64,000 bases of DNA from Amycolatopsis methanolica 239 (lineage in GTDB: Bacteria > Actinomycetota > Actinomycetes > Mycobacteriales > Pseudonocardiaceae), in contig NZ_CP009110.1 in NCBI RefSeq assembly GCF_000739085.1, forward strand, positions 4,278,001 through 4,342,000, read 5' to 3'. Position 1 is the first letter of the stretch, and the number at the start of each line of letters is the position of its first letter. The translations under genes were made by a program, and so were the position numbers. The notes below the pieces were generated by a model, which was not told the origin of the DNA, did not search any database, and was given only the letters and a program-made list of their open reading frames with translations. Shown piece after piece: positions 10,622 through 64,000 of the stretch.

Positions 10622-11550
10622 TTCGCGTCTTCCTCTCCGGCGAGCAGGTGGTAAAGCACGGCCATCCGCACGTGCACCCCGTTGCGGACCTGTTCGGTGA
10701 TCGCCGCGGACGGCGCGTCGGCGACCGCGGAGGCGATTTCCATCCCGCGCAGCATCGGGCCGGGGTGCAGCACGACCGCGTGCTCGGGCAGCAGCCGCAG
10801 CCGCGCCTCGTTCAGGCCGTAGGCGATCGAGTACTCCCGCGCCGACGGGAAGAACCCGCCGTGCATCCGCTCGGCCTGCACGCGCAGCATCATCACCGCG
10901 TCCAGCGCGGGCAGCTCGGCGTCCAGGTCGTGCGACACGGTGACCGGCAGCGCCCCGACCCCGGCGGGTAGCAGCGTCGGCGGGGCGACCAGGACGACCT
11001 CGGCACCCAGCGCGGACAGCAGGTGGATGTTGGAGCGCGCGACCCGGCTGTGCAGGACGTCGCCGACGATGCCGATCCGCCGGTCCTTGATGCCGCCGAG
11101 CCGTTCTCGCAGCGTGGCGGCGTCGAGCAGCGCCTGGGTGGGGTGCTCGTGCATGCCGTCCCCGGCGTTGACGACCGAGGTGCCGGTGCCCTCCAGCCAG
11201 CCGGCCAGGCGCTGCGCGGCGCCGGAGGCCGGGTGCCGGACGATGACGCAGTCGGCGCCGGCCGCGGACAGGGTCAGCGCGGTGTCCCGCAGCGACTCGC
11301 CCTTGCCGACCGAGCTGCCGCCTGCCGAGACGTTCACCACGTCGGCGCTCATCCACTTGCCCGCGATCTCGAACGAGACCCGGGTGCGGGTGGAGTTCTC
11401 GTAGAACATCGTGATGACCGTGCGGCCGCGCAGGGTCGGCAGCTTGCGGACCTCGCGGCCGAGCAGGGTGCGCTTGAGGCCGTCGGCGGTGTCCAGCACC
11501 GCGGTCGCCAGGTCGGGGTCCAGGCCTTCGGTGGCCAGCAGGTGCTTCAT
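10618..11550 (-). CDS. pyrB: Aspartate carbamoyltransferase catalytic subunit
   Basis: Commits carbamoyl phosphate to pyrimidines by transfer to aspartate. The 310 residues contain the carbamoyl-phosphate loop [11 protein letters not shown] near residue 50, [24 protein letters not shown] and the aspartate-binding [10 protein letters not shown]. No regulatory subunit gene (pyrI) is present nearby, as usual in actinobacteria. It overlaps pyrR upstream by 4 nt and pyrC downstream by 4 nt. Confidence 0.98.
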
Positions 11551-12137
11551 GCCTTCGCTTCCCCCTCGCGCAGCAGCACCGCGTCGCGCCCATCCACTTC
11601 GGACAGCAGGACGGCCACGTCTTCGGCGCGTGCGGTCGGGATGTTCTTGCCCACGTAGTCGGCCCGGATCGGGAACTCGCGGTGGCCGCGGTCGACCAGG
11701 ACGGCCAGCTGCACGGCCCGGGGGCGGCCGTGGTCGCGCAGGGCGTCCAGCGCCGCGCGCACGGTTCGGCCGGAGAACAGCACGTCGTCGACCAGGATCA
11801 CCACGCGGTCGTCGATGCCGGTGTCGGGCAGGGTGGTGTCCGCGAGCGGCCGCGTCGGGCGGCGGCGCAGGTCGTCGCGGTAGAGGGTGATGTCCAGGGC
11901 GCCCGTGGGGACCGCCACGCCGGAGAACTCGGCGATCCGCTCGGCCAGCCGGGCCGCGAGCGAGGTGCCCCGGGTCGGGATGCCCAGGAGAACGGGAGGT
12001 GCGCCCGTGCCGCCGTCGAGGGCGGTCTTCTCGATGACCTGGTGGGCCATCCGGGCGATGGTGCGCGCGACATCACCGGCGGAGAGCAACTCGCGCTCAC
12101 CGCCTGGTGCTGCCGCGTCACGAGGGCGTGACGCCAC
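11547..12137 (-). CDS. pyrR: Bifunctional pyr operon regulator / uracil phosphoribosyltransferase PyrR
   Basis: RNA-binding regulator of the pyr operon with uracil phosphoribosyltransferase activity. The PRPP motif [19 protein letters not shown] is clear, as are [17 protein letters not shown] and DITLYRDDL. The start is placed at GTG 12137 (196 residues) because GGAAGGAG lies about six bases upstream; a longer frame would add about 30 residues not seen in the family. It is the first gene of pyrR-pyrB-pyrC-PH-carA-carB-pyrF, so it would control the whole set through the leader. Confidence 0.95.
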
Positions 12138-12167
12138 AGCGGACTCCTTCCCCGCCTCGCCGGACGG

Positions 12168-12180
12168 GTCCTTAAAGGAC
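12168..12180. promoter_or_regulatory. 13-bp palindrome in the pyrR leader
   Basis: GTCCTTAAAGGAC is a perfect 6+1+6 palindrome about 30 bp upstream of the pyrR start codon. It could be a DNA operator or the stem of an RNA structure near the ribosome site. PyrR in actinobacteria is thought to act on leader RNA, but I cannot confirm a PyrR-binding loop here. It might have arisen by chance. Confidence 0.3.
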
Positions 12181-12296
12181 GTCGATCTCCTGCTTGCCGA
12201 GGAAATCCACTCGATGTTAACAGGCGGCACCGTTCAGCCGTCCGGGTGGTGCCGGGGCCATCATGTTCTTGACCTGGTGACGACAATGCGTAACCA

Positions 12297-12309
12297 TTAC
12301 TCTGAGTGT
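12297..12309. promoter_or_regulatory. Candidate BldD box upstream of bldD
   Basis: The bases TTACTCTGAGTGT match the published BldD pseudo-palindrome (T.AC.C(A/T)G.GT.A, as I recall it) at every specified position except the last. The core ACTC-T-GAGT is a perfect palindrome. It lies about 65 bp upstream of the bldD start codon and about 160 bp from pyrR, in the divergent intergenic region. BldD represses its own gene in Streptomyces, so an autoregulatory site here is expected. A possible -35 TTGACC occurs nearby at 12270-12275. Confidence 0.6.
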
Positions 12310-12372
12310 TCAACTCGGCAGTCCCCCGGCGGCCCATGAGACCGACTGGGCGAGGAAACGGAGAACCACCAG

Positions 12373-12729
12373 ATGGGCGATTACGCCAAGGCGCTCGGGG
12401 CGAAGCTCCGCGGGATCCGCCAGCAGCAGGGGCTGTCCCTGCACGGGGTCGAGCAGAAGTCCGGCGGACGGTGGAAGGCTGTCGTGGTCGGTTCCTACGA
12501 GCGCGGCGACCGGGCGGTGACCGTGCAGAAGCTGGCCGAGCTGGCCGACTTCTACGGCGTGCCGGTGGTCGAGCTGCTGCCCGAGGGCCGGGTGCCGTCC
12601 GGGGCCGAACCCGCCACCAAGATCGTCATCAACCTGGAGCGGCTGCAGCAGCTGCCTGCCGAGAAGGTCGGCCCGCTCGCCCGCTACGCCGCGACGATCC
12701 AGAGCCAGCGCGGCGACTACAACGGCTAA
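12373..12729 (+). CDS. bldD: BldD developmental regulator, truncated by frameshift
   Basis: Encodes the N-terminal 118 residues of BldD, the c-di-GMP-responsive master repressor of actinomycete development. The XRE-type helix-turn-helix is complete (YAKALGAKLRGIRQQQGLSL to SYERGDRAVTVQKLAELADF). The protein stops at RGDYNG because of an extra T at or near 12727. In BldD the c-di-GMP signature is RxD-x8-RxxD; RGD is the first half and the second half, RTED, lies just past the shift in another frame. Restoring one base gives 162 residues, close to the 167 of S. coelicolor BldD. As read, the product keeps DNA binding but loses the dimerising, ligand-binding domain. A sequencing error is possible. 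Confidence 0.92.
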   Translation: MGDYAKALGAKLRGIRQQQGLSLHGVEQKSGGRWKAVVVGSYERGDRAVTVQKLAELADFYGVPVVELLPEGRVPSGAEPATKIVINLERLQQLPAEKVGPLARYAATIQSQRGDYNG

Positions 12730-12862
12730 GGTGCTCTCCATCCGCACCGAGGACCTGCGGTCGCTGGCGATCATCTACGACATGACCCCCGGGGAGCTGA
12801 CCGAGCAGCTCATCGACTGGGGCGTCCTCCCGCCCGAGGCCCGGCCCGCCAAGGAGGACTAG
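12728..12862 (+). pseudogene. bldD: Out-of-frame C-terminal part of bldD
   Basis: Starting with AAG at 12728, this frame reads KVLSIRTEDLRSLAIIYD and continues to WGVLPPEARPAKED and a stop at 12860-12862, 44 residues that match the C-terminal domain of BldD. It contains RTED, the second half of the c-di-GMP motif. There is no plausible ribosome site for separate translation. The residues are fully conserved with no further damage, so the frameshift is either very recent or an error in the sequence. Confidence 0.88.
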
Positions 12863-13032
12863 GCAAACGGCCCGCCCGCCGCCTGCGTGCGGTGCGGGTG
12901 GCAGAACCTCGAACTCGCGCTGGCCCGGCCACCCCTGGTGGACGTGCCTCGCGCGACCGGCCTGACCCGCAACCCGCGGCGGTGCGAGCTGACTGCCCTC
13001 CCGCCGAGGGAAAATCGCCTGACCAGCGAAAA

Positions 13033-13066
13033 GCCCGGCGCGATCTCCGCGCGCCGGGCCTTTCTC
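13033..13066. terminator. Bidirectional terminator between bldD and nusB
   Basis: A 10-bp perfect stem GCCCGGCGCG / CGCGCCGGGC (13033-13042 and 13050-13059) with a 7-nt loop is flanked by GCGAAAA on the left and CTTTCTC on the right, so it can end transcripts from both convergent genes. The preceding stretch 12863-13030 shows no gene. Confidence 0.8.
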
Positions 13067-13083
13067 GTGTCTTCTGCCAGGTG

Positions 13084-13539
13084 TCAGAGCACCGCGCGGA
13101 TGCGGTCGGCGATCGTGCCGATCCGGCCCAGCACGCCGTTGACGAACCGCGGCGAGTCGTCCGTGGACAGCTCCCTGGCCAGCCCCACCGCCTCGTCGAT
13201 CGCCACGGGGTCCGGCACGTCGGCGGCCCACAGCAGCTCGTAGACGCCCACCCGCAGCACGGCCAGGTCGACCGGCGGCATGCGCTCCAGGCTCCAGCCG
13301 TGCGCGTGCTCGGCGAGCAGCTCGTCGATGCGCTCGCGGTTCGCGGTGACGCCCTCGACGAGCGAGATCGTGTAGTCGCCGATCGGATCGGCGTCCGTGG
13401 AGCCCACCCGGTCCGCCAGCAGCGTCACCGGATCGAGTGAGCGCTGAGCGGCTTCGTACAGGATCTCGACAGCGCGCCTGCGGAGAGCGCGGCGGCCGGG
13501 CCGGCCACCGCGCCGGGGCGCCGATGCGGAGTCGGACAA
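13084..13539 (-). CDS. nusB: Transcription antitermination factor NusB
   Basis: RNA-binding component of the rRNA antitermination complex, acting with NusE. The 151 residues are all alpha-helical in character: RRRAVEILYEAAQRS near the N-terminus, then MPPVDLAVLRVGVYELL and the C-terminal VNGVLGRIGTIADRI, all standard NusB. It starts with TTG at 13539, one base after the efp stop, so the efp-nusB pair is one transcript. The order efp-nusB is conserved in actinobacteria. Confidence 0.95.
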   Translation of the reverse strand: MSDSASAPRRGGRPGRRALRRRAVEILYEAAQRSLDPVTLLADRVGSTDADPIGDYTISLVEGVTANRERIDELLAEHAHGWSLERMPPVDLAVLRVGVYELLWAADVPDPVAIDEAVGLARELSTDDSPRFVNGVLGRIGTIADRIRAVL

Positions 13540-13540
13540 C

Positions 13541-14098
13541 CTAGGCCCTGCCCAGGTAACGGCCGTCGCGGGTGTCGACCTTGACCTTCTCGCCGGTGCT
13601 GAGGAACAGCGGCACCTGGATCTCGGCGCCGGTCTCCAGCGTGGCCGGCTTGGTGCCGCCGGTGGAGCGGTCGCCCTGCAGGCCGGGGTCGGTGTGCTGG
13701 ATGACCAGCTCGACCGAGGTGGGCAGCTCGACGTAGAGCGGCACGCCCTCGTGCATCGCGACCTGGACCTCGGTGTTCTCCAGCAGGTAGTTCGCGCCGT
13801 CGCCGACGGTCTCCCGCGGCACGGTGATCTGGTCGTAGGTCTCGCCGTCCATGAAGACGAAGTCCGACCCGTCGTTGTACAGGTAGGTCATGTTGCGCCG
13901 GTCGACGGTCGCGGTGTCGACCTTGGTGCCCGCGTTGAAGGTCTTGTCCACCACCTTGCCGGACAGGACGTGCTTGAGGGTGGTGCGCACGAACGCGCCG
14001 CCCTTGCCCGGTTTCACGTGCTGGAAGCTCACGACGGACCACAGCTGTCCGTCGAGGTTCAGCACCAGGCCGTTCTTCAGGTCGTTGGTGGTGGCCAC
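13541..14098 (-). CDS. efp: Elongation factor P
   Basis: Relieves ribosome stalling at polyproline stretches. The 185 residues have the three beta-barrel domains of EF-P. The tip loop of the KOW-like first domain reads [16 protein letters not shown] with lysine at the position modified in other bacteria. The middle [20 protein letters not shown] and the C-terminal [19 protein letters not shown] are typical. It starts with GTG, with AGGAG further upstream than usual. It lies between the M24 peptidase and nusB. Confidence 0.97.
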
Positions 14099-63431: not shown

Positions 63432-64000
63432 GTGGGATTCCCGGTCGCCCGCAAGCTGATCGACAGCCACCTGGTGTCGGGTGCGCCGGTGCCGGGTCGC
63501 GAGATCGGCCTGCGGGTCGACCAGACCCTCACCCAGGACGCCACCGGCACGCTGGTGATGCCGGAACTGGAGGCGCTGGGGCTGGACCGCGCGCGCACCG
63601 GGGTGAGCATCCGGTACGTCGACCACAACCTGCTGCAGGCGGACGAGAAGAATCGCACCCGACGCACATGGCGCGCTTCGGGGTGCCGGGGCAGACGATG
63701 GTCGGGTCCGACTCGCACACGTGCGCCGCGGGGTCGCCCGGCATGCTCGCGATCGGTCGGCGGGCTGGAGGTCGCGATGGCGATCGCCGGGGAGCCGCTG
63801 TACCTGCGGATGCCGGAGATCTGGGGCGTGCGCCTGACCAGCGCGCTGCCGGAGTGGGTGTCGGCCAAGGACGTGACCCTGGAGATGCTGCGCCGGCACG
63901 GCGTCAAGGGGGGCTGAACCGGATCGTGGAGTACCACGGTCCGGGGCTGGCATCGCTGGCGGTGATGGACCGGCACGTGATCGCGAACATGGGCGCGGAA
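63432..64000 (+). pseudogene. Decayed aconitase-family (AcnA/LeuC-type) gene, runs off window
   Basis: From a GTG at 63432 the frame reads FPVARKLIDSHLVSG, LRVDQTLTQDATGTLVM and SIRYVDHNLLQADEKN. It then loses about 25 residues and shifts frame at about 63653 (SHPTHMARFGVPG, MVGSDSHTCAAGSPGMLAIG), shifts again near 63755 (GLEVAMAIAGEPLYLRM) to VTLEMLRRHGVKGG and a stop at 63915-63917. A one-base shift in a G run restores NRIVEYHGPGLASLAV and IANMGAE to the window end. One internal deletion and at least three shifts make this a true pseudogene, not a single read error. Confidence 0.9.

Follow-up and report, generated by a model that had tools for sequence, protein, structure and literature searches.

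The bldD gene of Amycolatopsis methanolica 239, found as a single copy, is interrupted by one extra base inside its c-di-GMP-binding signature, and this frameshift is confirmed here. Real mutation and consensus error are evenly balanced as its origin, although the mechanism is ordinary either way, namely a frameshift in the sole copy of a known gene. We favor, at just short of an even chance, a genuine and very recent loss-of-function mutation in the sequenced culture.

Interruption of bldD within its ligand-binding signature

The window, i.e., the whole 64,000-nucleotide stretch analyzed, corresponds to positions 4278001-4342000 of a genome assembled as one contig (7,237,391 bases). Direct reading of the sequence and the list of open reading frames (ORFs) place bldD at window positions 12373-12862 on the forward strand, with a frame that stays open for 118 codons before a TAA stop codon (Table 1). 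As the initial annotation had proposed, this frame ends right after the codons for QRGDYNG, the extra T being the first base of the stop, and the last 43 codons of bldD, including the KVLSIRTED stretch, sit in the +1 frame according to the ORF list. Three residues of the x8 spacer in the RxD-x8-RxxD motif precede the stop. RGD is located near the end of the 118-residue ORF and RTED in the +1 ORF, so that the signature is cut between two otherwise conserved halves that share no frame. The Pfam domain BldD-like_C (PF21179) is divided in the same manner (profile positions 1-36 in the 118-residue piece and 39-70 in the 43-residue piece), and the helix-turn-helix (HTH) domain of the 118-residue product is whole (Pfam HTH_31, residues 7-68; HTH_3, residues 12-68).

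Table 1. Features of the bldD locus in window coordinates
Feature	Position	Strand	Evidence
pyrR, upstream neighbor	11547..12230	-	NF003547, 302.4 bits, profile 8-191 of 194
bldD 5' part, HTH and first half of C-terminal domain	12373..12729	+	118-codon ORF; 221.8 bits to NCBIfam BldD
Extra T relative to 18 other genus genomes, first base of TAA (12727-12729)	12727..12727	+	Sequence reading, DNA alignment
bldD 3' part, 43 codons, GTG start, second C-terminal half with RTED	12731..12862	+	BldD-like_C 39-70, E 4.7e-15
Terminator-like hairpin downstream of bldD	13033..13059	+	Consensus match only
nusB, downstream neighbor	13084..13539	-	TIGR01951, 123.3 bits, profile 2-127 of 131
efp	13541..14098	-	TIGR00038, 256.6 bits, profile 2-184 of 184

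The identity of the gene is indicated by a relative's protein that exceeds the BldD cut-off and by the profile matches of its neighbors pyrR, nusB and efp in the window. The order of pyrR, nusB and efp around bldD is typical. Local synteny of bldD is also mentioned in part of a review (PMC4255298). Relative to BldD as defined by NCBIfam (NF050110) and known from Streptomyces, the gene and its neighbors are the same and the HTH domain is whole, but the product encoded in the window ends after 118 residues without the second half-motif and reaches 221.8 bits, short of the cut-off of 250, whereas the protein of a full-length relative (P0001) scores 293.9 bits. The full-length protein also matches the PDB chains 2ewt (HTH part) and 4oaz, 5khd, and 4oay (C-terminal part), which are labeled as DNA-binding proteins and which we take to be BldD domains. 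A chance ORF was rejected as an explanation, as no BldD-type domain other than these two pieces was detected in the genome, and they are placed between pyrR and nusB-efp. A search for a sigma-70-type promoter gave no match in window positions 12200-13100, and a BldD box near the promoter was not upheld, with six one-mismatch matches in the searched locus (L007) versus 6.5 expected by chance.

Conservation of bldD among relatives and copy number

DNA alignment showed an open 162-codon bldD without the T in each of 18 further genomes from the genus, which agrees with the earlier claim of one extra T near position 12727. Their BldD proteins are identical in 17 of the 18 genomes, with a D to E change in the remaining one. 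Compared with these congeners, the gene in the window has two private differences: the T itself and, at 12793, a silent substitution in a third codon position. Given this one silent change and no other decay beyond the T, the event is either very recent or an artifact. Relatives with the same stop, named in the initial annotation as a case that would refute its reading, were seen in none of the 18 congeners. A conserved split or recoded gene was therefore rejected.

Across the family, 295 of 297 genomes match BldD at E 1e-30 or better, and the two genomes lacking such a match are rated 90% and 82% complete. Best E-values are between 3.5e-104 and 3.2e-94 for 294 other family genomes, compared with 1.8e-73 for the window's genome. 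Among the matches listed, the survey rows cover residues 1-162 or 1-161 with no stop, and the remainder are probably full length, judging from their E-values. A real loss would hence be exceptional, because the gene is almost never missing in the family (294/297 at E 3.2e-94 or better). When the first 118 residues were searched, Amycolatopsis antarctica was the best named record among the 80 kept, most of which bear Pseudonocardiaceae names.

The initial annotation had also suggested looking for a second copy of bldD. The 7.24 Mb genome, a single contig, revealed none, and PF21179 matches only the two bldD pieces (E up to 0.001). The next match of the 118-residue query in this genome is just 35% identical over 65 residues, and compensation by a paralog was rejected on these grounds. 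Among the titles and abstract openings listed, none points to bldD in A. methanolica.

Assembly quality around the insertion

To evaluate the assembly, stretches of the window's genome were compared with G015, whose bldD is the closest among the relatives (99% identity). Genes were called with a codon-usage script, without annotation, and only well-mapping genes were tested (G015 genes: 242 of 304 around bldD; 71 of 74, 56 of 59, 29 of 30, and 30 of 31 in four other regions). A first classifier gave similar results in both genomes (23/235 genes flagged here, 22/242 in G015) and a second early classifier flagged 24/246 here versus 25/252 in G015, many of the flagged genes in both cases being miscalled ORFs. 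Under a stricter rule, a shift had to be flanked by coding signal on either side. In the 344 kb around bldD, this rule gave 9 frameshifted genes among the 242 tested in the window's genome, compared with 2 of 250 in G015. Besides bldD, these encode amino acid permease, 2OG oxygenase, nitroreductase, response regulator, aconitase, Nramp transporter, histidine kinase, and luciferase-like monooxygenase domains. Six of these eight genes are either offset by 4 to 97 bases or hold several indels, the pattern of decayed genes, and the other two (response regulator and Nramp) have one -1 shift each. The single-base shifts in the latter two genes lie at genome (G000) positions 4259321 and 4364549, with further mismatches nearby. 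The aconitase-family gene (window positions 63755-64000 onward; G000 4341755 to about 4342852) is open in G015 and contains several small deletions here (isolated ones at G000 4341755, 4341911, 4342809, and 4342852), resembling a decayed gene copy.

None of the 130 tested genes (128,679 nt) in the ribosomal protein S3, NuoD, and ATP synthase regions was frameshifted in the window's genome (0/71, 0/29, and 0/30, respectively), although by the rule of three zero shifts in 129 kb are still compatible with roughly one error in 43 kb and are thus weak evidence. One flagged gene among the 29 is an Oxidored_q2 (nuoK-type) gene that is whole here (99 residues; L150:8545-8844) and frameshifted in G015 (L162, L161). 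The ftsZ region yielded 3 of 56 flagged genes versus 2 of 57 in G015. The three encode an MFS transporter (-8), a protein lacking any Pfam match (-29), and an ArsR-type regulator (-1; G015 copy at L158:13178-14245). A few single-base shifts are therefore present in the A. methanolica genome, in dispensable-looking genes, and none were seen in the three conserved regions. Apart from bldD, the three single-base shifts (response regulator, Nramp, and ArsR-type regulator) could be errors.

The sequence context of the insertion was compared with that of other indels. Relative to G015, 59 isolated single-base indels were found in 551,139 aligned bases, of which 47 alter a homopolymer run and 12 leave runs unchanged. 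When the 80 flanking bases were allowed no more than one mismatch, 18 of 19 indels lengthen or shorten a run, and the only one that does not is that of bldD, in which the T equals neither neighboring base. The T alters no run and is therefore not explained by the usual homopolymer miscall.

Mutation, consensus error, or a working gene

In favor of a real loss, the break is read directly, the T is absent from all 18 congeners, and no backup copy was found; the probable presence of enzymes for c-di-GMP, the lack of shifts in the three conserved regions, and the non-homopolymer context are counted on the same side. Counted against it are the rarity of bldD loss in the family, the otherwise pristine state of bldD beyond the T, the single assembly behind the sequence, and the flagged genes around ftsZ (3/56) and around bldD (9/242, compared with 2/250 in G015); the single-base shift in the ftsZ region, in particular, slightly lowers the odds of a real mutation. 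A consensus error in one assembly, under which the cell would carry an ordinary, intact 162-residue BldD, is practically as probable as a real loss. A T private to one assembly, only one further private and synonymous site, strong profile matches retained by both pieces, and single-base shifts of possibly the same kind in three other sampled genes all fit such an error. Moreover, slight differences exist between the two genome sequences available for the type strain of A. methanolica, which a published report attributes tentatively to sequence quality (PMC6171478). The clean conserved regions and the context of the T argue against an error, the former weakly for the reason given above.

A split or recoded BldD that still works is, taken together, very unlikely. 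Translation might stop at the TAA and re-initiate at the GTG, which lies one base downstream, with the resulting 43-residue C-terminal fragment re-associating with the 118-residue piece to build the ligand site jointly. Both c-di-GMP half-motifs do survive, one per piece, but the cut lies inside the ligand signature, no congener has this arrangement, and by eye no Shine-Dalgarno-like stretch occurs at a useful distance, which makes a functional split highly improbable. Full-length BldD could also be produced by a programmed +1 frameshift at UAA, given an intact +1 frame downstream. This we consider the least probable of all and barely credible, as the site occurs in none of the 18 congeners and the glycine codon before the stop, inspected by eye, offers no good +1 re-pairing.

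Expected consequences of a real loss of BldD

Under the favored reading of a recent null allele, translation would end at 118 residues, and the truncated product would keep the DNA-binding domain plus about half of the C-terminal domain. Published work on Streptomyces (PMC4151990) describes two BldD C-terminal domains that are held together by tetrameric c-di-GMP via the RxD-x8-RxxD motif. By itself, the DNA-binding domain needs at least 10 uM to dimerise, and a bldD mutant is not complemented by an allele with defective c-di-GMP binding (PMC4151990). On the basis of this work, the 118-residue product is predicted to be unable to dimerise through c-di-GMP, in line with the initial annotation. 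It would not be bridged by the tetrameric ligand and would probably be unstable or a weak DNA binder. By analogy with Streptomyces, we infer that the 118-residue BldD is null or near-null and that the strain would behave as a bldD null. The charge-swapped Streptomyces allele (DGR-X8-DQDR), as presented in part of the same study (PMC4151990), is comparable in that BldD is likewise expected not to bind c-di-GMP, although the Streptomyces allele encodes a full-length protein with substituted residues, whereas the C-terminal domain of A. methanolica is cut in two.

The initial annotation had anticipated early sporulation or altered antibiotic production. Altered secondary metabolism may be retained as an expectation, but early sporulation is less certain and is not a safe prediction, because engineered mutation of bldD in Saccharopolyspora erythraea, a member of the same family as the window's organism, gave a bald strain according to a review (PMC4255298). 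The expected phenotype in Pseudonocardiaceae would hence be bald or altered secondary metabolism. If the frameshift is real, a laboratory strain would be a naturally arisen bldD null, within a family in which nearly every examined genome keeps the gene, and physiology and metabolite data of the strain would need to be read in that light. If it is an error, a master regulator has been misread in a complete genome. Seven matches over the cut-off of the GGDEF family were identified in the genome, indicating that enzymes for c-di-GMP are probably present.
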